From: Candidatus Rokuibacteriota bacterium
Lineage (GTDB): Bacteria; Methylomirabilota; Methylomirabilia; Rokubacteriales; CSP1-6
DNA length: 48,382 nucleotides
Reading direction: 5' to 3'
NCBI GenBank assembly: GCA_016209635.1
Contig: JACQWC010000110.1
Location: 1-48,382, forward strand
The stretch's first letter is position 1, and every line of letters begins with the position of its first letter. The notes beneath the pieces were generated by a model, which was given only the letters and a program-made list of their open reading frames with translations, ran no database searches and was not told where the DNA came from. This document shows, piece after piece, positions 18,461 through 30,040 of the stretch. Position numbers and translations under genes: made by a program.

Positions 18461-19765
18461 TCAGGGTGTGCGGCCGCCCCCGCTCGCGGCGCTCCCGGCC
18501 CGCGTCACCCAGTAGTGATCGGGGCGGCGCGCGACGCGCTCCGCCAGGAGCCGCTCGGCCCGCTCGACGTCGCCGGCCCGGAAGCACGCCTCGAGGAGCG
18601 TGTCGTGGAACACGTCGCGCTGGGCACGGCTGCCGCCGAGCTCCTTGACACGGGCGCGCAGCGGCGCGATCCGCTGGATCGTCCGGCGGTAATCGCGCTG
18701 GGCAAAGGCGTGGATCCCCTCGACCAGCGGCACCAGCACCTCGCCGGTGAGGCCCGTCCGGTCCTTCGGGCTCCGCTCGCGGAGCATCCCGAGCTGCTTG
18801 TCCGCCGTGGCCCAGTCCCCGCCGGCGGCGAGGGCCATCGCGAGGTGGGCGGCGTGGAAGAGGAGGCCCTGGCGATCGAGCCGCTCGGCGGCGATCGCCA
18901 TGAACGGGCGCCAGCGGTCGGTCACGTCCCGGCCGTAGAGCTCGAGCCGCCAGAGAAGCGAGATCGAGTCGTGCAGGTCCCCCGCGACCGACGAGGGCGC
19001 GCGCTCGAAGACGGTGCGGCCGAGGTGGGACGCGCGCTCGTAGTCCCCGCGCCCCAGATGCATCAGGATCAGGTGCCAGAGGAGGTGGTTCCTGAACCAG
19101 CCGAGGTTCGTGCACGGATGGATCGCGGGCGGAAGCCGCGTGATGCCCGTCTCGAACGCCGCCATCTCGTAGAGGGCGTGGGCGAGCGCGTGGATGGCCC
19201 AGGCGTCGAGCGGATTCCTGACGATCGCCGCCTGGGCGATCCTCACCGCCTCGTCGCAGCGGCCCGCCTGCTCGAGCGCGAAGGCGTGGAGACCCAGCAT
19301 GAAGGAGCTGCCCGGATGGTGCCGGCTCAGCGCGCGGGAGAGGTCGAGCATCTCGGGGAACTTGCCCTGCCAGAACCAGATGAAGTAGAGCCGCTGGAAG
19401 ACGACGAGGTCGCGGGGGAAGTCGGCGAGGTGCCGCGTCATCGCCGGCTCGGCGTCGCGCGTCTTGCCCTCGACGAGGAGCGCCAGCGCCTCGACGTGGC
19501 GGCGCTCGCGCTCGGTCTGCGCGGCGACGGCGGCGCGCGCCACGCTCGCCGCCTCGCGCGCCTCGGCGAAGCGCTCGTCGAGGAAGAGACAGACGGCGGC
19601 GCCCGCGTGAGCCAGCGCGAGCCCCGGGTCCGCCGCGGCGGCGGCGCGGAAGCGATCGAGGGCGCGCGCGTCCCAGCCGAGGAGGCCTTCGACCGCCTGG
19701 TCGTACCCCGCGAGGGCGTCCGGCGACGCCGTGGTGACCGGCAGGCCGTAGGCGTCGAGCGGCAT
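18461..19765 (-). CDS. TPR protein, TTC38-like
   Basis: A 434-residue soluble protein made of tetratricopeptide-like helical pairs and resembling the tetratricopeptide repeat protein 38 family. The start MPLDAYGLPVTTAS and the central NPLDAWAIHALAHALYEMA and WFRNHLLWHLILMHLGRGDY are family hallmarks. There is no signal peptide or catalytic motif; it is probably a scaffold or binding protein of unknown partner. It is packed between the YheT-like hydrolase (10-base gap) and the GT87-like gene (2-base gap), so it belongs to the same transcript. No function can be assigned beyond the family. Confidence 0.75.
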   Translation of the reverse strand: MPLDAYGLPVTTASPDALAGYDQAVEGLLGWDARALDRFRAAAAADPGLALAHAGAAVCLFLDERFAEAREAASVARAAVAAQTERERRHVEALALLVEGKTRDAEPAMTRHLADFPRDLVVFQRLYFIWFWQGKFPEMLDLSRALSRHHPGSSFMLGLHAFALEQAGRCDEAVRIAQAAIVRNPLDAWAIHALAHALYEMAAFETGITRLPPAIHPCTNLGWFRNHLLWHLILMHLGRGDYERASHLGRTVFERAPSSVAGDLHDSISLLWRLELYGRDVTDRWRPFMAIAAERLDRQGLLFHAAHLAMALAAGGDWATADKQLGMLRERSPKDRTGLTGEVLVPLVEGIHAFAQRDYRRTIQRIAPLRARVKELGGSRAQRDVFHDTLLEACFRAGDVERAERLLAERVARRPDHYWVTRAGSAASGGGRTP

Positions 19766-19775
19766 CGCCGGAATG

Positions 19776-20750
19776 CTAGCAGACCCCGCCCGGGTCGGCG
19801 AGAAGCGCGCGGAGAAACTCGAGGGCGCGCCGCTCGGCCCACGACCTCGAGCGCCACGGCCAGCGCCCTTCGAGGAACCCCGCGTGGCCGCCGTGGGCCG
19901 GGAACTCTGCCCGCACGCCGGAGGGCAGCCGGCCAGGGTCCGGCAGCGTCTCCGGCGGCACGAACGGATCGTCGAGCGCGTTCAGGAGGAGCGTGGGCCG
20001 CCGGATCCGGGCGACGTAGGGACCGCTGCTCGCCCGCCTCCAGTAATCGGCCTCGTCGGCGAAGCCGTGGAGCGGGGCGGTGACAGCGCGGTCGTACTCG
20101 GCGAAGGTCCGCGCGCGCGCCGCCGCGCGCAGGTCGACGAACGCGCCGTGACTCCGCGCCTTGGCGCGCACCTTCCGCCGGAGCGTCCGCATGAAGTTCG
20201 CGGTGTAGAGCGCGCGGCGGAGGCCACGGTCGAGCGCCCGTGCGCAGGCGGCGAGGTCGAACGGCGTGGAGATCGCCACGGCGCCCCGGAGCTGCCCGGG
20301 CACGTCGAGGTGGCGCTCGCCGAGCCACTTGAGCAGCACGTTGCCGCCGAGCGAGACCCCGACCGCGCCGAGCCGCAGATCGGGCTCGCGCCCCGCGAGG
20401 AGCTGGACGATCGCGTCGAGGTCGCCGGTGTCCCCCGAGTGGTAGAAGCGCGGCAGCCGGTTCAGCTCGCCGCTGCACGAGCGGAAGTTCAGGACGACCC
20501 CGCGCCAGCCGTCGGCCCGCGCCTCGCGGAGGAGACCCCTGACGTAGTGGGAGCCCGACGAGCCCTCGAGCCCGTGGAGGACCAGGAGGAGGGGCGCGCC
20601 CGTCGGGCCGGGGGCCCAGTCGAGGTCGACGAAGTCGCCGTCGCCCGTCGGCACGCGCTCGCGCCGGAGGGCCACGGGGTGCCGGCGAACGAGCGGGCCC
20701 CAGATCGTCTGGAGGTGCCCGTTCCTGCCCCACCAGGGGGGCGCGAACAC
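19776..20750 (-). CDS. Alpha/beta hydrolase, YheT-like
   Basis: A 324-residue alpha/beta hydrolase of the YheT/ABHD1-3 group. The family N-terminus is plain (GRNGHLQTIWG), followed by the oxyanion segment LLVLHGLEGSSGSHY. The nucleophile is the serine of GVSLGGN, the acid is in LNALDDPFVPPE and the histidine in HGGHAGFLEG. The start is a GTG at 20750, which gives the expected first residues. Family members are esterases or lipases of poorly known substrate. It lies 15 bases after the small UGSC selenoprotein gene, so it is co-transcribed with that cluster; whether it takes part in the same pathway is unknown. Confidence 0.86.
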   Translation of the reverse strand: MFAPPWWGRNGHLQTIWGPLVRRHPVALRRERVPTGDGDFVDLDWAPGPTGAPLLLVLHGLEGSSGSHYVRGLLREARADGWRGVVLNFRSCSGELNRLPRFYHSGDTGDLDAIVQLLAGREPDLRLGAVGVSLGGNVLLKWLGERHLDVPGQLRGAVAISTPFDLAACARALDRGLRRALYTANFMRTLRRKVRAKARSHGAFVDLRAAARARTFAEYDRAVTAPLHGFADEADYWRRASSGPYVARIRRPTLLLNALDDPFVPPETLPDPGRLPSGVRAEFPAHGGHAGFLEGRWPWRSRSWAERRALEFLRALLADPGGVC

Positions 20751-20765: not shown

Positions 20766-21296
20766 CTAGTCCTGCCCCTGGAGGATCAGCTTCACGACCT
20801 CCGGCGCGATCTCACGGGCGCGCTGATCCAGCTCCGCCTCGGTGAGGTTCGCGATCGGGTGCGCCGCGAGGAGAAACTTGTAGTACGGCAGGCCCCACTG
20901 CTCCGCCATGGCGCGGCCGGTCACCTCGAAGACGTCCGTCACGATGGACGCGGAGGGCACGCCCGCCTTCTCCAGCAGGATTCCGTCGAGCACACTGCCC
21001 GACGAGCAGGACCCTCAGTCTCCGATTCCCGCGACCATGACGTCCGAGGTCGCGCGCACCTCCTCGATGATCTCCCGGTGCGCCGGCACGCTCGAGTTGT
21101 GCTTCCGCCACATCCGCGTCTCGCGGGCGCCGTACTCGGCGACGAGGAGGTCGCCGATCTTCTGAAGCAGCCGGTCAGAGTTGAACTTCGTGTTCTCGAT
21201 CAGCGCGACCCGCTTGCCTTCGAGCGAGGCCGGGCGAGGAACCCACGCGACGGTCCGCGTGGTCGCCTCCGTGGTGGGATCGAGCAGCTCGGTCAT
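20766..21296 (-). CDS. UGSC-motif selenoprotein, in-frame UGA read as selenocysteine at residue 94
   Basis: A 176-residue protein with a UGA codon at 21017-21015, inside the motif GIGD-U-GSCSSGS, which defines the UGSC (seleno)protein family. The N-terminal part has an ALIENTKFNSDRLLQKIGDL strand-helix, then RMWRKHNSSVPAHREII and ATSDVMVAG leading into the UGSC turn. The C-terminal part continues PSASIVTDVFEVTGRAMAEQ and ends at 20766. The frame is continuous on both sides, and a stable hairpin follows the UGA. UxxC is a thioredoxin-like redox pattern; the biochemical role of the family is not established. The ATG at 21296 overlaps the stop of the partner gene (ATGA), so the two proteins are made together and probably form a complex. 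Confidence 0.9.
20984..21017 (-). promoter_or_regulatory. Predicted bacterial SECIS element of the small UGSC gene
   Basis: After the UGA (21017-21015) the transcript can form CGTCGGGC-AGTGT-GCTCGACG: eight pairs including one G-U, at 21004-20997 and 20991-20984. The five-base loop lies 19-23 bases after the UGA. The position and size match the hairpin in the second UGSC gene exactly, although the stem bases differ, which suggests that the structure is maintained. Confidence 0.75.
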
Positions 21297-22384
21297 CGCT
21301 TGACCTCCTTCGACCCGTTGAAGGGTCGGCTCGGCGATCGGATCGCCTCACCTCCGATGGCCACGGTCACGGCCTGGGACGCCCGCTTGCTGCCCCAGCC
21401 GGGCACGTACGCGGAGAATGCTCCCGCGCGGCCCCCGGCCGCCACGACGAGGATATCATCGGACGACGCAACGAGTGGCCGCATGAGCGCCTCGTCGCCC
21501 GGCCGCAGCTCGCCGGCCATCCGCTGGGTCCGCTTGAGATGCGCGTGGGAGTTGTGCGTGTGCTCGAAGACGAAGCGCCGGACGTCGGCCTTCGTCCACC
21601 CGTCGCGGGCAATCGTCCGCATGTGCTCGCCCGCGATGATGAGCAGGTACTGCGTCTGCCCCATGACGTTCCCGGAAATGCGCATGTCGTCGGCGAGCGT
21701 CGTGAGGACCCCCTCCGCCGTGTTCGAGAGCTGGTTGTAGAACTGGTGCGGCGCCTCCGCCGCCATCACGGTGACCGCGCTCTCCGCGGGACGGAAGCCG
21801 CGCTCGACGTGGAGCGGCGGCCACGGGCTCTCCGCCTCGTTCTCGGCGATCACGTAGGAGAGCTTTCCGGGGTGCCCGAGCGTGCCGCGGTCGAGGGTGC
21901 CCGGCCGCGAGCCACAGACGTTCCGCATGACCAGGCGCACGGCGCGGCCGATGGTCGCGTTGGCCCGCCACCCGGGGCCGAAGAGGTTGTCGCCCGCGTT
22001 CACGTCCAGCTCCCGGGCGATCGGGCCGTTCACGACGATGAGGACGCCCGCGCCCGCGGTGGACGTGCCCGGTCCGTGGTAGCTCCAGCGGGGGTCGCCG
22101 ATCGCCTCGATCGCCGCGACGACGACGGGCATGTACTCGGGCCGGCAGCCGGCCATCACGGCGTTGATCGCGACCTTCTCGGCCGTGATCGAGACGGCGC
22201 GGTGCTCGATGTACGCGACTTCCCTCGCCGGATCGAGACCCGCCCCGTCCAGCATCGCCCGCACCCGCGCCTCGGTGGGCGGGATCACCGGCAGGCCGTC
22301 GGTCCACCCCTTCTCGAAGCAGACCTCCATGGCCTCCGCGATGTCCTCGACCCCGTGCCGCACGGACGTGAGCGTCTCCGCCAT
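21293..22384 (-). CDS. UGSC-associated protein (partner of the selenoprotein), unknown function
   Basis: A 363-residue cytoplasmic protein starting at the ATG at 22384, which follows a strong GAGGAGG. It is clearly paralogous to the C-terminal 380 residues of the next gene. Shared blocks include GWTDGLPVIPPTEARV, IVVNGPIAREL, GPGWRANATIGRAVRL, DRGTLGHPGK, SPWPPLHVERGF, TAEG and DDILVVAAGGRAG. I recognise no cofactor or metal motif, although several conserved histidines, glutamates and one CGSRPG cysteine could be catalytic. Coupling by ATGA to the UGSC selenoprotein, and fusion of its paralogue to a UGSC domain, show that the two parts work together. The function is unknown. Confidence 0.8.
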   Translation of the reverse strand: MAETLTSVRHGVEDIAEAMEVCFEKGWTDGLPVIPPTEARVRAMLDGAGLDPAREVAYIEHRAVSITAEKVAINAVMAGCRPEYMPVVVAAIEAIGDPRWSYHGPGTSTAGAGVLIVVNGPIARELDVNAGDNLFGPGWRANATIGRAVRLVMRNVCGSRPGTLDRGTLGHPGKLSYVIAENEAESPWPPLHVERGFRPAESAVTVMAAEAPHQFYNQLSNTAEGVLTTLADDMRISGNVMGQTQYLLIIAGEHMRTIARDGWTKADVRRFVFEHTHNSHAHLKRTQRMAGELRPGDEALMRPLVASSDDILVVAAGGRAGAFSAYVPGWGSKRASQAVTVAIGGEAIRSPSRPFNGSKEVKR

Positions 22385-22443: not shown

Positions 22444-24024
22444 TCAGCTCTCGACGGGCACGGTGACCGAGCGGGTCGAGCCGAAGGTCGGGACGAAGGC
22501 GGAGTGCTTGCCGGGGCCGCCGGCGACGACCACCATCACGTCGTCGGGGCTCGCGGCCAGGGCGATCCGCTCGTCGGGCGGCCGGTCGCGGAAGCGCGCC
22601 GGGTCGATCGTCGCGAAGCGCGCCAGGTTCTCCGCGCCGAAGGCCGCGGCCGGCACGCGCGCCCGCTCCCAGAAGGCCCGCCGCAGATCGTCCTTCGACC
22701 AGCCGGACGCCGCGATGGTCTGCGCGTGCTCGGGGCCGAGCAGGAGGAGGGGCTCGCCCCCGAGGTAGACGTTGTTGTTGCCGGGCGTCGCCGCGGTTCC
22801 GGCCAGCGCCGCGAGGAGCCCCTCGGCGGTGGTCGAGCCGTGATCGTTCACGTTGTGCGGCGCCTCCGACGCGCACACGGTCACGCAGCTCACGCCCGCC
22901 GCGAATCCCCGGTCCACGTGGAGGGGCGGCCACGGCGACGCCTCCTCGTTCTCGCCGAGGCAGTAGGTGAACTTCCCGGGATAGCCGAGGGTCGCGCGGT
23001 CGAGGTGCCCGGCGCGCGCCCCGCCCACGTTCTGGAGGGTGAGCCTCACGCTCCGGCCGATCACCGCGTTGGCGCGGTACCCCGGTCCGAGCGCGCCGGC
23101 CCCCGCGCCGATCCCGAGCCGTGCCCGGATGGGCCCGTTCACGACGACGAGGGGCGTGCAGGGATGCGTGGTCGTCTGCACGGCCTCGAGGTTGAAGCGC
23201 GGCTCGGCCAGGGCCCGGAGCGCGGCCAGGATCACGGGCAGGTGCTCGGGACCAGCGCCCGCGAGCGCCGCGTTGACCACGATCACCTCGAGCGTCGCGC
23301 GCCCGAACCGCGGCGCCAGGGTCGCGACGACCTCGCCGGGCAGCCCGGGAGTCCCCGCGAGGAGCCGGACGACGCGCTCCGGCGTGGGCGGGAGGACGGG
23401 AAGCCCGTCGCCCCACCCCTCGGCCATCGCGAACGCCTGGAACTCGTCGAGGTCGTCGGGGGCGGCGAGCGTCGCCGCGGAGGCCGGCCGGGGAGAGGGC
23501 GGGGGCGCGGGATCACTCGTCAGCGCCCGGATCACCGCGTCGGCGACCGACTCAGCCTTGGCGCGCACCACGGCGGGGTCGAGGCCGCCGATCGGGTGGG
23601 GCACCGTGACGCGCGCCAGGTGCGGCACCCCGAGCGCCGCGGCCGCCTCGTCGGCGAGCGACCGGAAGGCGTCGGTGCCGAGGACGACCACCGGCACGCC
23701 CCGCCCCTCGAGCGCCGCCGCGTCGTGGATACTCCACGACGTGCAGGACCCTCAGTCGGCCGAGCCGGTCAGGACCACGTCCGACGCGCGCGCCACCTCG
23801 TCGATCACGGACGCGGGGCGCGAGGAGCCCGGCTTCCGCCACCACCGGACGGCGCCGGCGCCCGCGCGCTCGGCCAGGATTTCGGCCGTCCGACCGAGGA
23901 GCGCGTCGGCGTTGGGCTTGGAATTATCGAGTATCCCGATCGTGAGCCCGCGGAGGCTCGACCGCCGTCGCGCGAGCGGCCTGACCTCTCGGGGCGCCAG
24001 GCCGAGGGGGCTCAGGACGTTCAT
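22444..24024 (-). CDS. Fused UGSC selenoprotein and UGSC-associated domain, in-frame UGA at residue 91
   Basis: A 526-residue protein in one frame, interrupted only by the UGA at 23754-23752. Residues 1 to about 145 form the UGSC domain (GLTIGILDNSKPNADALLG, RWWRKPGSSRPASVI, SDVVLTGSAD-U-GSCTSWS). After a proline-rich linker near residues 170-180 comes a domain paralogous to the downstream gene (GWGDGLPVLPPTPERV, VVVNGPIRARLG, GPGYRANAVIGRSVRL, DRATLGYPGK, SPWPPLHVDRGF, DDVMVVVAGGPGKHSAF). The ATG at 24024 overlaps the acetyltransferase stop. A nine-base perfect hairpin follows the UGA. The fusion mirrors the separate two-gene version next door, so this is probably a second enzyme of the same type acting on a related substrate. 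Confidence 0.9.
23721..23754 (-). promoter_or_regulatory. Predicted bacterial SECIS element of the fused UGSC gene
   Basis: After the UGA (23754-23752) the transcript forms CGTCGTGGA-GTA-TCCACGACG, a perfect nine-base stem (23741-23733 and 23729-23721). The loop is three bases, or five bases (AGTAU in RNA) if the top pair opens. The loop is centred 21 bases after the UGA, as in the other UGSC gene. The hairpin lies wholly in coding sequence, as expected for bacterial SECIS elements. Confidence 0.8.
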
Positions 24025-24557
24025 GGCTTCCACTCCTCCCGGAGGATTCCCATCGTGATCGCGTCCCAGTAGCGTCCCTCCTGGTACCGGTCCTGACGCA
24101 GCACCCCCTCGCGCTTGAAGCCCACCTTCTCGTACACGTGGATCGCGCGCGGGTTGTTCTCGTAGACGTGGAGCCACACCCGGTTCAAGTTCAGGGTCCC
24201 GAAGGCGTAGCCCACCAGGAGGCCCGTCGCCTCGGTGCCGTAGCCCTTGTTCCACTCGTTCTTGTCGCCGATGACGATGCCGAAGGCGGCATGGTGGTTC
24301 CGGAAGTCGATCCGGTGGAGGCCGGTCGCCCCGATCAGCCGGTCGGTCTGCCGGGCGACGATGCCCAGCGCGAGGTCGTGCTCGCTCTTGACGAGGGACT
24401 GGATGAACTCCTCCTCGGCCTCGAGCGTCATGGGCCGGTAGCGGTTCAGCGTCCGGTTGACCTCGGCGTCGTTGATCCACGGGACGAAGAGCGCGGCGTC
24501 CTCGCGCTCGAGGGGACGCAGGTAGATCTTCGTCCCGATCAGAAATGGGTTCCGCAT
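24021..24557 (-). CDS. GNAT acetyltransferase, RimJ/RimL-like
   Basis: A 178-residue N-acetyltransferase of the type 3 GNAT group. The start GTKIYLRPLEREDAALFVPW is typical of RimJ/RimL/SpeG-like proteins. The acetyl-CoA-binding region appears as GIVIGDKNEWNKGYGTEATG, and the C-terminal block NRVWLHVYENNPRAIHVYEK is also characteristic. The acceptor could be a ribosomal protein, an amino acid or a small amine. Its stop overlaps the start of the fused UGSC gene (ATGA), so it is co-translated with the selenoprotein cluster. A direct role in that pathway is possible but unproven. Confidence 0.86.
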   Translation of the reverse strand: MRNPFLIGTKIYLRPLEREDAALFVPWINDAEVNRTLNRYRPMTLEAEEEFIQSLVKSEHDLALGIVARQTDRLIGATGLHRIDFRNHHAAFGIVIGDKNEWNKGYGTEATGLLVGYAFGTLNLNRVWLHVYENNPRAIHVYEKVGFKREGVLRQDRYQEGRYWDAITMGILREEWKP

Positions 24558-24576
24558 GACCCTCTCCCCCGGCGGC

Positions 24577-25767
24577 TCACCCTGCCCCGTATGCCGTGCC
24601 GGTCTCGCGGGTGAAGACCCCGAAGCCGAACGCGAGCGCCTGGACCCCGGCCGCGACCAGAAACGCGGCGCTGAAGCTGCCCGTCACGTCCAGCACGCGC
24701 CCGAGCACGATCGGCAGGACCATCCCGCCCACGAAGCACGAGGTGTTGGTCACGCCGGAAGCGGTTCCGGCCAGCTCCCGCGGGAACATCTCCACGATCA
24801 TGACGAACGGGAGGATCATCCCGCCGACGAGCAGCCCCGTGCCGAGCGCCGCAACGACCGCGCCCGCCGCGCCCAGCCCCGGCACGACCACGGCGAACGC
24901 CACGCACCCGGCGACGCTCATGGCCTGGCTCCCGAGATAGAGGGCCTTCCGGCGGCCCAGCCGATCGCTCAGGAGCCCGGCGAGCGGCCACGACACGATC
25001 GTGCCCGCGGTGATGAGGCTCGTCACGAACCCGGCGTACGGCTGGGAGAGGCCGAGTTGCGTCACGAGGAACGCCGGGAGGAAGGTGATGAAGCTGAAGT
25101 AGCCGCCGTACGCGAAGAGCACGCTCAGGTTGAAGGGCCAGAGGGCGCGCGTCGACAGAACCCGGCGGAGGCTGCCACGCCCCGCGCCCTCCGGCGGCGC
25201 CTCCCGCGGCCCAGGGCGCAGACCCAGTACCACGATGATCAGGGTGAAGAGCGCGGCGACGGCGGTCGAGCCGTACGCCCACCGCCAGCCCCAGAGCGCG
25301 GCGAGCCACGGGACGAGCACGAGCCCGAGGGTCCCGCCGAGGCCGCCGCCCGACGAGAGGAGGCCGGTGGCCCGGCCGCGCTCCTCGCGCGGGAACCACT
25401 CGCTCACGAGGCGCATGCTCGGGACCCAGACCGCGGCCGCACCGAGCCCGACCAGCATCCGGGCCGCGATCGACTCGCCGTAGGTCTGGCTCCGCGCGAA
25501 CGCGAGCGCGCCGAGCCCGAGGAGCGCCATGCACACCGCCATCACCCGCCGCTCGCCCCACCGGTCGGCGACCACCCCGACCGGCACCTGGACCGCCGTG
25601 TAGGTCCAGAAGTAGGCGGTCTGGATCGTCCCCGCCGCGGCGTAGCTGAGGCCCAGGTCGGCGACGAAGGTGGGGATGAGCGGCGCGAAGGCCATCCGGT
25701 GGAGATGGGTCTGCATGAAGGCGACGAGGCCGACCGCGAGAATCACCCACCGATAGCGGGGGGCCAC
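24577..25767 (-). CDS. Major facilitator superfamily transporter
   Basis: A 396-residue secondary transporter with about twelve membrane helices. The loop between helices 2 and 3 carries the MFS motif as VGVVADRWGERRVMAV, repeated in the second half as AGLLSDRLGRRKALYLG. The start is a GTG at 25767, placed just after the stop of the isochorismatase fusion. The first helix (WVILAVGLVAFMQTHLHRM) resembles anion/organic acid carriers such as the NNP or ACS groups. It lies within the cluster that includes AtuA, DUF4387 and the dihydropyrimidinase, so it may import or export a carboxylate or ureide used by them. The substrate is unknown. Confidence 0.87.
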   Translation of the reverse strand: MAPRYRWVILAVGLVAFMQTHLHRMAFAPLIPTFVADLGLSYAAAGTIQTAYFWTYTAVQVPVGVVADRWGERRVMAVCMALLGLGALAFARSQTYGESIAARMLVGLGAAAVWVPSMRLVSEWFPREERGRATGLLSSGGGLGGTLGLVLVPWLAALWGWRWAYGSTAVAALFTLIIVVLGLRPGPREAPPEGAGRGSLRRVLSTRALWPFNLSVLFAYGGYFSFITFLPAFLVTQLGLSQPYAGFVTSLITAGTIVSWPLAGLLSDRLGRRKALYLGSQAMSVAGCVAFAVVVPGLGAAGAVVAALGTGLLVGGMILPFVMIVEMFPRELAGTASGVTNTSCFVGGMVLPIVLGRVLDVTGSFSAAFLVAAGVQALAFGFGVFTRETGTAYGAG

Positions 25768-25769
25768 GA

Positions 25770-26795
25770 TCAGCGGGCGACCCGCTCCATCATGACCGAC
25801 TCGATCTCCCGGATGAGGCTCTCGGCGGTGGCGACGCGCCCGAGCAGCCGCTGGAAGTTCTCGCAGGTCGCGTCGTGCAGCCGCTGGCTCGCGGCGGCGC
25901 AGCCGTCTTCGACGAGCACGCAGCGGTACCCGCGGTCGGCGGCGTCCCGCGCGGTCCCCTCGACGCACGAATTGGTCGACACGCCCACGAGCGCGAGCTG
26001 CTCCACGCCCCACGCGCGGAGCAGCCGCTCGAAGCCCGACGAGTGGAACGCGCTCATGGTGGTCTTGTTGATCACGGGCTCGCCGGGCACCGGCGCCAGG
26101 GCCTCGAGGATCTCGTGCTCCCGCCGCCCCCGCGTGTTCCCGACCGCGCGGGCCAGACCCCGCATGTGCGGCAGGAGGTCGGAGAAGTCCGGCAGCTCGG
26201 AGCCGACCGTCAGGTAGACACGGCGGAGGCCGTGGGCGCGGAAGACGTCGAGGAGCCGTCGGATCGTCGGGACGATGATCCGCTCGATCCGGTCGAAGCG
26301 GTACGCGCCAAGCGTCGTCTGGCCGCGCTCCCGGAGGAACCGCCCGAGCCCCTCGTCGCGGGAGGCGCTCGCGTACTGCATGTCCACCACGACGAGGGCG
26401 AGACGCTCCGGGTCGAGGGCGAAGGCCGGATTGAACGCGGCCGCGTAGTCCGCCTGAAGCGCGGGGCCCCCGTCCTCCCAGGGCAGCTCGATCCCGAGGA
26501 GCGGCGCGTGCTGCTGGGCCCCGTAGGTGTCCCGCTCGCCCACGCTCCCCTGCGCCGTCTGGCGCGCGACCGTCAGCTTCAGCGCGAGGGCCGGATCGTA
26601 GAAGACCACTTCGTAGACCTGGTCCGGCGGGATCCGGTAGAGCGCCGCGACGCGCTCGCGGGTGAAGTATCCGGTGCGCTTAACCGCGTCGTACGTCGCG
26701 CGGTCAGGGAAGATCAGGTCGAGCGTGATCTCGAACGGGCCGGCGTTCTTCGACCGGATCACGCGGGCCAGCTCGGCGAGCCTCCGCGTGGCCAC
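25770..26795 (-). CDS. Fusion of a DUF4387 domain with an isochorismatase-like cysteine hydrolase
   Basis: A 341-residue protein with two domains in one frame. Residues 1 to about 110 are a DUF4387 domain (RRLAELARVIRSKNAGPFEI, DPALALKLTVARQ, DTYGAQQHAPLLG). The rest is an isochorismatase-fold hydrolase with its triad: aspartate in LALVVVDMQYA, lysine in VINKTTMSAF and the nucleophile Cys277 in GVSTNSCVEGTARDA. The start is a GTG at 26795, overlapping nothing and two bases after the AtuA stop. DUF4387 proteins usually accompany AtuA as separate small proteins; here the partner is joined to an amide or ureide hydrolase. The whole probably acts in one pathway with AtuA and the dihydropyrimidinase. 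Confidence 0.83.
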   Translation of the reverse strand: MATRRLAELARVIRSKNAGPFEITLDLIFPDRATYDAVKRTGYFTRERVAALYRIPPDQVYEVVFYDPALALKLTVARQTAQGSVGERDTYGAQQHAPLLGIELPWEDGGPALQADYAAAFNPAFALDPERLALVVVDMQYASASRDEGLGRFLRERGQTTLGAYRFDRIERIIVPTIRRLLDVFRAHGLRRVYLTVGSELPDFSDLLPHMRGLARAVGNTRGRREHEILEALAPVPGEPVINKTTMSAFHSSGFERLLRAWGVEQLALVGVSTNSCVEGTARDAADRGYRCVLVEDGCAAASQRLHDATCENFQRLLGRVATAESLIREIESVMMERVAR

Positions 26796-26797
26796 GC

Positions 26798-28159
26798 TCA
26801 GTACTCGACGAGCTCGACGGGGAAGGGCGCCGCGGGGTCCTCGACGGCGAGCAAGTGATAGACGTTGAAGCGGTAGACGGGTCCGAGCCTGACGTCGCTC
26901 GGGGCGAATGGAAAGGCGAGATTGCCCGCCGTCGCCTTGCGTCCGGGGTAGGCGTAGTGGATCAGCGTGGCGCGGACGAAGGCGCAGATCGCGTCCGCCA
27001 GCTCCTGCGTCGCCGCCACCACCTCGATCACGAGGCCGACCTCGTGGGGCCCGGCCCCGGCCCGGAGCGGCTCGCTCGCCCCCATCACGCCGTCGATGCC
27101 GTAGTGGTGGAAGAGGATCCGGTAGTCGCCCCGCGGCACCCGGTCGAAGTAGTCGCGGGTGAGGTCGACCACCGCCTCCTCCGAAGCGTGGAGCTCCGCG
27201 AGCATCAGGGGGTCGCGGATTCCGGCGAGGACGACCGTCCGGTACGCGCAGAGCTCCGCGCCCTCGAGTTTCACCGTGTAGGGCGTCGACGGGTGGAAGG
27301 CGCTCCCCCGAACCTCGACCGCGCGATCTCCGATCTGCCGGAAGGTGCAGCCGGAGAGATCCGTGAGGCCGCCGGGCCCCGGCAGGAGGTAGGGGTGCGA
27401 CTTCTCGTAGAGCGTGTGGGCCGCGACCGAGGTCTCCGTGCAGCGGCGCGCCGGATTCAGCGGCTCGACGACGAAGCCGTCGGAGCGGAGGACGCCGAGC
27501 ATCGCGTCGCCCGGCGAGCCGGGGTCGGCTGCGAGCGCGCCGCACTCGAGGATCTTCCCGAGGTGCCACGCGGGCCCCTCGGCGAATCCCTTCCACAGCG
27601 GCCAGGCCGCGAAGCACGCCGGGTCGTACGCCCGGCCGGCGATGATCACCTGGGCCCCTGTCTCGAGCGCCCGGATCAGCGGCTCCGCCCCCATCTGGGC
27701 GACGATGCGGGTGGCACTGTCGATCGCCTTGTCGGTGAGCGACGGCACCCCCCGGAGCGGCGTGATCCGCCCGGCGGCCAGCTCGGATTTCAGGAATTCC
27801 TTGTCCAGCTCGGCGTGAACGTAGGCGACGCGGAGGCGCCGCCCGTCCTCTCGGATCAGCTCCTCGAGGATCTCGCGGGTCCACGCGAGGTGGACCTCCG
27901 CACCCGAGCCGCCGGCGGAGCCGACGATGACCGGCACGCCGAGGTCGAGACCGCCGCGGAGCATCGCACCGAGGTCCTTCTTCGTCGCGGCGCGGCTCAC
28001 GATGCCGACGCCCGCCCCGAGCTTGTGCGGCCCGCCGTCGGTCGAGCCGGCGTCGGCCGCGATCACGTGGGGCCGCCGGAGCAGGCCCGCCTCGAACGAC
28101 GCCAGCGGGAAGCCGTAGCCGAGCATGCCCAGCGGCGCCAGGATCCGACACTCGTCCAT
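26798..28159 (-). CDS. AtuA family (acyclic terpene utilisation-like) protein
   Basis: A 453-residue protein of the AtuA family. The N-terminus shows RILAPLGMLGYGFP and the block AADAGSTDGGPHKLG, followed by GSAGGSGAEVHL. Later segments include GRAYDPACFAAWPLWKGF, KILECGALAA and SAFHPSTPYTVKLEGA. AtuA is named after Pseudomonas genes for citronellol and geraniol breakdown, but many members lie in other catabolic clusters and their reaction is not settled. It is packed between a dihydropyrimidinase (8-base gap) and the DUF4387 fusion (2-base gap). The pairing with DUF4387 is a recurrent association known from other genomes. The substrate is unknown. Confidence 0.83.
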   Translation of the reverse strand: MDECRILAPLGMLGYGFPLASFEAGLLRRPHVIAADAGSTDGGPHKLGAGVGIVSRAATKKDLGAMLRGGLDLGVPVIVGSAGGSGAEVHLAWTREILEELIREDGRRLRVAYVHAELDKEFLKSELAAGRITPLRGVPSLTDKAIDSATRIVAQMGAEPLIRALETGAQVIIAGRAYDPACFAAWPLWKGFAEGPAWHLGKILECGALAADPGSPGDAMLGVLRSDGFVVEPLNPARRCTETSVAAHTLYEKSHPYLLPGPGGLTDLSGCTFRQIGDRAVEVRGSAFHPSTPYTVKLEGAELCAYRTVVLAGIRDPLMLAELHASEEAVVDLTRDYFDRVPRGDYRILFHHYGIDGVMGASEPLRAGAGPHEVGLVIEVVAATQELADAICAFVRATLIHYAYPGRKATAGNLAFPFAPSDVRLGPVYRFNVYHLLAVEDPAAPFPVELVEY

Positions 28160-28167
28160 GGCCGGCC

Positions 28168-29598
28168 TCAGCACGCGGGACGGCGGAGGATCACGGGATC
28201 GATCTTGCGCTGGAGCAGGCGGCCGTCGCTCGGGCTCCCGACGAGCGCGCCGCCATCGGCGATCACCCGGCCGCGCAGGATCGTCGTCACGGGCCACCCG
28301 GACACGCTCCACCCCTCCCACGGGCTGTAGTCGGTCACGTGGAAGTCCTCCCGCGTGAGGGTCTTCTTGATCCCGGGGTCGATCAGCGCCAGGTCGGCGT
28401 CGCTCCCCGGGGCGATGACGCCCTTACGGGGGTAGAGGCCGAAGATCCGCGCGGCGTTCGTGGCGGTGATCTCGGCGAAGCGCTCGAGCGACATCCCGCG
28501 CTTCACCACGCCCTCGCTGAACGCGATCCCCATCCGGGCCTCGGCGCCGACGTTCCCACCGGTCACGTCCTCGATGGTCTTGCCGCGGAGCTTGACGGCG
28601 AGGGTCGTCGGGTACTCGTCGGTCGCGAGGGTCGAGAGATCGTCCCCCACGAGCCCGCCCCAGAGCGCCTGCTGGTCCTCGGGCAGCTTCAGCGACGGGT
28701 ACGTGTGCGAGCAGAAGCCGCGCGGCGTCTTGTAGTAGTCGGCGTTGAAGCAGGTGTACTGGTGGAGCGTCTCGCCGTACACGGGCAGCCCGAGCGAGCG
28801 GGCCTCCGCGACCGCCTCGACCCCCTCGCGGGCGGAGGTGTGGACGAAGTAGACGGCCGCGCCCGTCGCCCGAGCGAGCGCGATCGTCCGCCGGAACGCG
28901 AGCAGCTCGGAGAGCTTCGTGTGGACGAGGTGCAGGTTCGTGCCGTCCATCCGCCCCTCGGCGCGGAACTTCTCGTACATGAACTGGACGAGGTCCTCGT
29001 CCTCGCCGTGGACCGCGATCAGGCCGCCGTGGGCGGCGATCTTCTCCATCGCGTGCTGGATCCGGCCGAAGTCGAGGCGGTTCCCGGCGCGCTTGGGATG
29101 CGGGGGCAGCACGTTGGTCGTGAAGACCTTGAAGCTCGGGAACCCCTCCTGGATCGCCTCGGGGATCTGCTCGAAGACGCGGAGCGCCAGCGGCCCGCAG
29201 AGCGTCACGTGGAAGGCGTAGTCGACGTACGAGTTGCCCTTCCACCGGGCGCGCCGCTGCTCGATCACCTCGGGAATCTCCATCCCCGGCCGCACGTAGC
29301 AGAAGTCGATGTGCGTCGTGGTCCCGCCGAAGGCCATCCCTCGGGTGTCCTCCTCCGGCCCCATCGTGAGCCCGGGCTCGTCGGGATGGCTCATGATCGC
29401 GTGCGCCAGATGCGTGTGCGGATCGATCCCGCCGGGGACGACGATCTTGCCCGACGCGTCGAGGACGCGGGCCGAGCCGGTCGCCAGCGTTCCCGGCTGA
29501 CCGAGGACGGCGATGCGCTCGCCCTCGATACCCACGTCCCACGCCCCGACACCCTGGGGCGTGACGACCTGCCCATGACGGATCACGAGGTCGAGCAC
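28168..29598 (-). CDS. Dihydropyrimidinase/hydantoinase-like cyclic amidohydrolase
   Basis: A 476-residue metal-dependent amidohydrolase. All binuclear-site ligands are present: H61 and H63 (DPHTHLAH), the carboxylated lysine K157 (SFKVFTTN), H197 (VHGEDED), H253 (FVHTSAREG) and an aspartate in LATDEYPTT. This enzyme class opens cyclic amides such as dihydropyrimidines, hydantoins or allantoin-like rings. The GTG at 29598 gives the normal start LDLVIRHGQVVTPQG; anything longer is unlike the family. A promoter -10 lies only a few bases before it, so the mRNA may be leaderless. It is the first gene of the minus-strand cluster that runs through AtuA, DUF4387, MFS and the UGSC genes. Confidence 0.9.
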   Translation of the reverse strand: MLDLVIRHGQVVTPQGVGAWDVGIEGERIAVLGQPGTLATGSARVLDASGKIVVPGGIDPHTHLAHAIMSHPDEPGLTMGPEEDTRGMAFGGTTTHIDFCYVRPGMEIPEVIEQRRARWKGNSYVDYAFHVTLCGPLALRVFEQIPEAIQEGFPSFKVFTTNVLPPHPKRAGNRLDFGRIQHAMEKIAAHGGLIAVHGEDEDLVQFMYEKFRAEGRMDGTNLHLVHTKLSELLAFRRTIALARATGAAVYFVHTSAREGVEAVAEARSLGLPVYGETLHQYTCFNADYYKTPRGFCSHTYPSLKLPEDQQALWGGLVGDDLSTLATDEYPTTLAVKLRGKTIEDVTGGNVGAEARMGIAFSEGVVKRGMSLERFAEITATNAARIFGLYPRKGVIAPGSDADLALIDPGIKKTLTREDFHVTDYSPWEGWSVSGWPVTTILRGRVIADGGALVGSPSDGRLLQRKIDPVILRRPAC

Positions 29599-30040
29599 GG
29601 GCTGAGCGTAGCCCACGCCGCGTGAGCGGTCAACGACGAAGGCGGGACGGAGCGAGGGCGCATCCGGTTCTGTGACAGCTTGCCACGTCCCGATGCCCGA
29701 GGACCTCCTGGCCTGGGCAGCCGGCCGATCGGATGTTCGCGTCGTGAGACGCCCCGCAGCGTTTGCGGGTCGATGCGCCAAGATACGCTGCACACCCTTG
29801 CGGCCTATCCAGGCTTGGCCGCGTTGTCTTGGTCGATCGCAAGATGTTGAAACGATGGCGCCAGATGCGAACAAGACACGTCGCGTCGCTATCTGAATAG
29901 GCCGACCAGCCCTGCAGCGTTTGCCAGAATACGCAGATCAGCCTATCCTGCTGCCGAATTCTAGTTCGCCGCATAGGCGGACGGGCCACGGTAATCGCCA
30001 TCGAGTTCGGTTATCCTGAAGATGCTGCGTGAGGGCGCCG
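29599..30040. other. Gene-free, lower-GC stretch at the left edge of the island
   Basis: I find no convincing gene, tRNA or mobile-element end here. The first 35 bases hold the promoter described above. Beyond about 29640 the base composition drops, and short AT-richer patches appear that are absent elsewhere. An 11-base direct repeat, GCAGCGTTTGC, occurs at 29756-29766 and 29914-29924, 158 bases apart. The stretch looks like degraded sequence at the border of the acquired region and must contain the promoter of the antitoxin gene, which I could not place confidently. Confidence 0.5.
29605..29633 (-). promoter_or_regulatory. Promoter of the dihydropyrimidinase-UGSC cluster, probably leaderless
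   Basis: On the minus strand TTGACC (29633-29628) and TACGCT (29610-29605) are exactly 17 bases apart. Initiation six to seven bases after the -10 would fall on or next to the GTG start at 29598. No ribosome-binding site precedes that codon. Confidence 0.6.

Follow-up and report, generated by a model that had tools for sequence, protein, structure and literature searches.

Which reaction could be expected of a selenoprotein whose family is annotated just as '(seleno)protein', and what might it do with the neighbour to which it is tightly coupled? The question is raised by a stretch of 48,382 nucleotides from a soil bacterium, a Candidatus Rokuibacteriota (contig JACQWC010000110.1), the whole of which is called the window below. 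In it, a first-pass annotation had picked out a 176-residue UGSC selenoprotein with its UGA at 21017-21015, a 363-residue partner overlapping it by ATGA, and a fused paralogue of both next door. All of these coordinates are correct and the fused gene is indeed present (24024-22444, 526 residues), which gives the following features.

19776-20750, reverse strand: alpha/beta hydrolase gene, 15 nt downstream of the UGSC gene (Abhydrolase_1, 3.5e-16)
20766-21296, reverse strand: UGSC selenoprotein gene, ATG to TAG, 176 residues, selenocysteine (Sec) 94 in D-U-G-S-C (PF24696, 7e-58; NF041046, 4e-40)
20985-21003, reverse strand: bSECIS-like hairpin GTCGGGC-AGTGT-GCTCGAC, 3' of the stand-alone UGA (pairing and compensatory changes, 55 distinct sequences)
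21015-21017, reverse strand: Sec codon UGA of the stand-alone UGSC gene (sequence; U in 125 of 126 distinct homologues)
21293-22384, reverse strand: partner protein gene, 363 residues, without a Pfam or NCBIfam family (profile searches; adjacency to UGSC)
22444-24024, reverse strand: fused UGSC-partner paralogue, 526 residues, Sec91 (PF24696, 1e-48; NF041046, 2e-39; AlphaFold2)
23722-23740, reverse strand: bSECIS-like hairpin GTCGTGG-AGTAT-CCACGAC of the fused gene (alignment of pairing)
23752-23754, reverse strand: Sec codon UGA of the fused gene (sequence)

The TGA stop of the partner shares ATGA with the ATG start of UGSC (21296-21293), just 5' of which lies a Shine-Dalgarno sequence (AAGGAGGT), and the fused gene, in which the UGSC domain precedes the partner domain, is located upstream of the pair. 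In about 39 related loci an alpha/beta hydrolase gene likewise adjoins the module, its conservation there being confined to this bacterial family. Upstream, a run of reverse-strand genes (24021-29625) encodes an amidohydrolase of hydantoinase type, AtuA, DUF4387, an isochorismatase-type hydrolase, an MFS transporter and a GNAT protein, the last of which overlaps the fused gene by ATGA. In the other loci compared, none of these genes was found by the module except MFS genes and, in one locus, a partial amidohydrolase match, and the amidohydrolase, AtuA, DUF4387 and isochorismatase-type hydrolase genes were therefore rejected as a guide to the substrate.

Both UGSC proteins of the window are full members of their family, in which Sec is the usual residue. 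They score 196 and 165.7 bits against PF24696 (cut-off 25) and 137.3 and 134.9 bits against NF041046 (cut-off 125), and they carry the U/C-G-S-C motif with a UGA-encoded Sec and a SECIS. The first-pass annotation was right that this is a known selenoprotein family, but it missed both a fusion already in print and a recognisable relative (GrdB/PrdB). Zhang and Gladyshev (2008; PMC2398784) class UGSC with thioredoxin (Trx)-like redox proteins and list, in Fig. S1A, a fusion, with a reported conserved Cys, of a UGSC domain and a conserved but functionally uncharacterised domain, 'Unknown_1', which is likely to be the partner described here. A 2026 review again places UGSC as Trx-like (PMC13188914), the fold that is also supposed in the family annotation. 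With the family and its fusion both published by 2008, the UGSC-partner unit is just partly new. The papers found on UGSC record neither the partner as a constant neighbour nor a kinship with GrdB/PrdB; what is new is (i) this kinship, (ii) a near-obligate, nameless partner family and (iii) a thioredoxin link in culturable hosts.

Reading of the UGA as Sec, which had been proposed from the start, is backed by a covarying hairpin, SelB and tRNA-Sec. Rfam at gathering thresholds gave no match in the window, and SECIS elements were therefore examined by hand. Across 55 distinct sequences, a hairpin 14-32 nt 3' of the UGA pairs in 90% of cells (22-56% in controls with one strand shifted by 1-4 nt), shows compensatory changes on both sides (CG/GC, TA/AT/GT, GC/AT) and has an AGU loop in nearly all cases. 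The genome, of 4.16 Mb (completeness 92.6%, contamination 7.9%), encodes SelB, above cut-off, and tRNA-Sec, both on contig C168, and has five UGSC genes with exactly one in-frame TGA in each. The Sec column is conserved as the first-pass annotation expected, since among 126 distinct UGSC proteins from genomes 125 have U, and haloarchaeal and some bacterial plasmid copies have Cys in its place. The resolving-Cys column reads C in 125/126 as well.

Do UGSC and its partner act together? That they form one functional unit, as was claimed at first sight, is supported by gene neighbourhood and by co-divergence. Far from being seldom adjacent, the partner lies within ~1.5 kb of UGSC in 51/55 UGSC genes that were found without using the partner, a search that avoids the bias of starting from the partner itself. 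By this measure the two are together in 5/5 cases in the genome itself, in 27/30 in its relatives and in 19/20 in six other genomes (a figure that is not wholly independent, these genomes having been reached via partner loci), and at least one UGSC gene with no nearby partner is cut by a contig end. Conversely, a search from the partner finds UGSC alongside in nearly all non-Poribacteria loci compared, in Rokubacteria, Betaproteobacteria, Binatota, Firmicutes, Chloroflexi and Entotheonella, and genomes with a stand-alone partner have UGSC elsewhere (8/8). Gene order varies (partner-UGSC, UGSC-partner or fused), which argues that the link is functional and not the mere inheritance of a single layout. 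Distances within UGSC and within the partner correlate (115 pairs, r = 0.91), with 0.22 as the highest value in 500 permutations; because permutations leave shared species history in, this supports physical pairing and does not prove it. AlphaFold2 models the fused paralogue with pLDDT 95.7 and pTM 0.94 over both domains. Two haloarchaeal plasmids (L209 7337-9963 and L212 5927-8575) have partner-UGSC-partner triplets, in which one Cys-type UGSC is flanked by two partner paralogues.

A clue to the chemistry comes from more distant relatives. When 67 UGSC proteins were scanned against all 18,950 NCBIfam models, the most recurrent non-self matches were five GrdB/PrdB/GrdF/GrdH models with 12-22 members each: glycine reductase selenoprotein B (22, best 2.4e-6), PrdB (17), GrdF (15), mixed selenoprotein B (13) and GrdH (12). 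The next model had 9 members at 0.02, and non-self matches in a Pfam scan look like chance. A UGSC profile aligned by hhalign with GrdB/PrdB proteins of related genomes (probability 95%, P 4.5e-8) aligns Sec with Sec and the terminal HP with its counterpart HP. By profile comparison UGSC is thus homologous, at superfamily level, to the C-terminal Sec domain of GrdB (TIGR01917/PF07355) and PrdB (TIGR04483), with which it shares a Sec after a core strand, a UxxC-type motif, G(I/V)P and a near-terminal HPxxN/G. UGSC nevertheless stands outside these families proper (13.6 bits against a TIGR01917 cut-off of 602; PF07355 not among the matches reported for the two proteins of the window). It has no counterpart of the N-terminal domain of GrdB, and its partner is unrelated to GrdE/PrdA. 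In this genome (92.6% complete) no match was found to PF09338 (GrdE/PrdA), which is positive in 8/40 genomes, or to the acceptor protein GrdA, which was matched in none of the control genomes either. In the predicted UGSC structure, beta strands and alpha helices alternate, and Sec follows strand 83-89 and precedes helix 92-107. The structural matches listed for it are of Rossmann/flavodoxin type; absence of a thioredoxin fold from that list does not exclude one, but the thioredoxin-like nature guessed at in the literature is not obvious. Having the GrdB/PrdB Sec domain as a recognisable relative makes the reaction class predictable, and it suggests that this widespread selenoprotein acts on small organic acids by cleaving a bond of carbon to nitrogen, to halogen or of a similar kind.

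Related selenoproteins also occur among relatives of the window genome. Some (loci L106-L111) encode short proteins that resemble PrdB, with Sec in UxxC motifs (for example VVLTPA-U-GLCNQ) and no GrdB N-terminal domain, which are another under-described Sec family. Others (L094-L100), presumably non-fermenting soil bacteria, encode full-length GrdB with Sec in U-G-T-S/G-T-R-C-G, in some cases near GrdE genes.

The partner, described at first as a protein of unknown function, has been harder to place. Neither alone nor over 60 homologues does it match a Pfam or NCBIfam family beyond chance. Its identification as a recognisable relative of GrdE/PrdA was rejected (hhalign probability 0.1%, no Pfam/NCBIfam match among 60 members), as was its being a part of GrdB (0.1-0.5%). 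Foldseek returned nothing from the PDB at E <= 0.001, the best matches being class I fumarases and cyclic amide hydrolases at an rmsd of 11-18 A, and the best Z of VIA-align (7.1) is under its significance guide. The partner has no recognisable solved relative, which does not in itself prove a new fold. Invariant or near-invariant are R147, R150, N142, N155, N74, E181, D29, D165 and H254. A pyruvoyl group derived from a conserved Ser or Cys was rejected, none being invariant (C80 62/69, C178 51/69, S324 65/69). Unrelated to GrdE/PrdA and with no invariant Ser/Cys, the partner must activate the substrate otherwise.

How would such a module be reduced, and on what would it act? In Cys-type plasmid modules, the gene order is trxB-trxA-partner-UGSC in Arthrobacter, partner-UGSC-trxB in Roseovarius, and trxB, a TTT binding protein gene and an SDR gene followed by partner-UGSC in Variovorax. 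This trx link, found in 3/8 annotated modules of this type, supports coupling to thioredoxin, and glycine reductase (grd) clusters include trxB too (PMC2897892). Near ~80 Sec-type genome loci no trx gene was found apart from one distant trxA. Other neighbours of the module include CoA transferases, CoA ester lyases, enzymes of isocitrate lyase/PEP mutase types and TRAP/TTT binding proteins, which point to small organic acids. Initial clustering of neighbouring ORFs was swamped by antisense ORFs in this GC-rich DNA; over 24 loci there is no recurrent third family, none being shared by more than 5/98 neighbour genes, and with no third gene constant enough the substrate cannot be named.

The UxxC pair and the trxB/trxA neighbours would equally suit a general thiol/selenol redox protein (a peroxidase or disulfide reductase) for which the partner provides specificity or docking. 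Such a role, assumed in the literature from the UxxC motif, would agree with the placement of UGSC among Trx-like redox proteins in PMC2398784 and with a peroxidase activity of GrdB, to judge from the title of Grobe et al. 2007 (cited in PMC3091704). We regard it as unlikely, since the predicted beta-alpha-beta-alpha fold matches Rossmann/flavodoxin-type structures, the sequence relatives are GrdB/PrdB, the partner is large with many invariant polar residues, and the up to 12 paralogues per genome, found in organic-acid gene neighbourhoods, suit substrate enzymes better than stress proteins.

Plasmids carry further versions. In Paracoccus ferrooxidans pFER4 (L208 8383-10053), a Sec-UGSC gene, mis-annotated as two short hypothetical proteins because of its UGA, is flanked, together with its partner, by selA and selB. 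Genes for cysteine desulfurase, TusA and DsrE are near, a setting that could be taken to mean that the unit is a selenium/thiol carrier or a cofactor-maturation system and not a catabolic enzyme. In P. versutus pTAV4 (L210 11414-12981) a Sec-UGSC and partner pair is ~6 kb from tRNA-Sec (19187-19280). Both plasmids look like mobile selenocysteine islands, and an island with its own machinery accounts for the P. ferrooxidans layout. Cys-form UGSC genes, on haloarchaeal plasmids and elsewhere, are moreover in catabolic clusters, and a carrier role seems very improbable. An Acidovorax IncP plasmid has Sec-UGSC near IS1071.

On balance, UGSC and partner, as a pair or in the fused copy, probably form a reductase of two components that is recharged by thioredoxin and splits a C-X bond of small organic acids, the cleavage and substrate class being what we infer from the relatives and neighbours above. 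The model is the D-proline reductase proposal (PMC3091704), in which the pyruvoyl of PrdA binds the substrate, the selenolate of PrdB attacks the alpha carbon to form a selenoether, and a PrdB Cys resolves this to a selenide-sulphide; like PrdB, UGSC keeps Sec and a resolving Cys. In our scheme, (i) UGSC would be a single alpha/beta domain in which a core strand leads straight to Sec at the N-terminus of a helix, the resolving Cys following three residues later (U-G-S-C), (ii) the partner, with its many invariant Arg, Asn, Glu, Asp and His, would hold the small organic acid in place of the pyruvoyl subunit GrdE/PrdA and activate it, perhaps via the nine residues listed above, (iii) the selenolate would attack the substrate carbon and displace X (N, O, S or halogen), (iv) the resolving Cys would attack the Se-C adduct, releasing the reduced product and leaving a selenylsulfide, and (v) thioredoxin or a similar dithiol would recharge the latter. 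Paralogues within one genome might act on different substrates. The breadth of leaving groups is suggested by selenoproteins related to GrdB/GrdE that have been implicated in splitting the C-F bond of fluoroacetate (farB/farE; PMC10838667). These set a precedent for leaving groups that vary and for numerous paralogues, but have a GrdE-type partner and anaerobic hosts.

This chemistry would be beyond some family members. In fused relatives on Vibrio europaeus pVEu (L204 8371-10056) and Sporomusa termitida pSPTER (L206 8323-10047), both close to an aconitase X gene pair (aconitase X, DUF126), M-G-T-S replaces U-G-S-C, and one relative in a betaproteobacterial genome reads G-G-T-A; without U-G-S-C, neither form can use the proposed mechanism. 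The M-G-T-S fusions, which keep the partner, may be a non-redox branch, and together with the weak resemblance of the partner to hydro-lyase and cyclic amide hydrolase folds they might indicate that the pair is in general a lyase, isomerase or transferase, with Sec just a nucleophile or one ligand among others. Conservation of both U and C in 125/126 distinct Sec-form sequences indicates a redox pair instead, and the trxB neighbours would be left unexplained, which makes a non-redox enzyme a decidedly poor prospect.

If UGSC and partner are a C-X-cleaving reductase, they could, tentatively, define a new class of thioredoxin-dependent, selenium-based enzymes for reductive cleavage on organic acids, with a pyruvoyl-free substrate domain, present in haloarchaea and in numerous bacteria of soil and water that are presumably aerobic, spread by plasmids and sometimes travelling with their own Sec machinery. 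Through the GrdB/PrdB link and the constant partner, what was an 'unknown redox protein' becomes an enzyme class open to testing, for which cultured Paracoccus, Arthrobacter, Roseovarius and Natrinema, with their plasmid copies, provide candidate hosts and which, if true, would mean that Sec-dependent reductive cleavage reaches beyond amino-acid-fermenting anaerobes.
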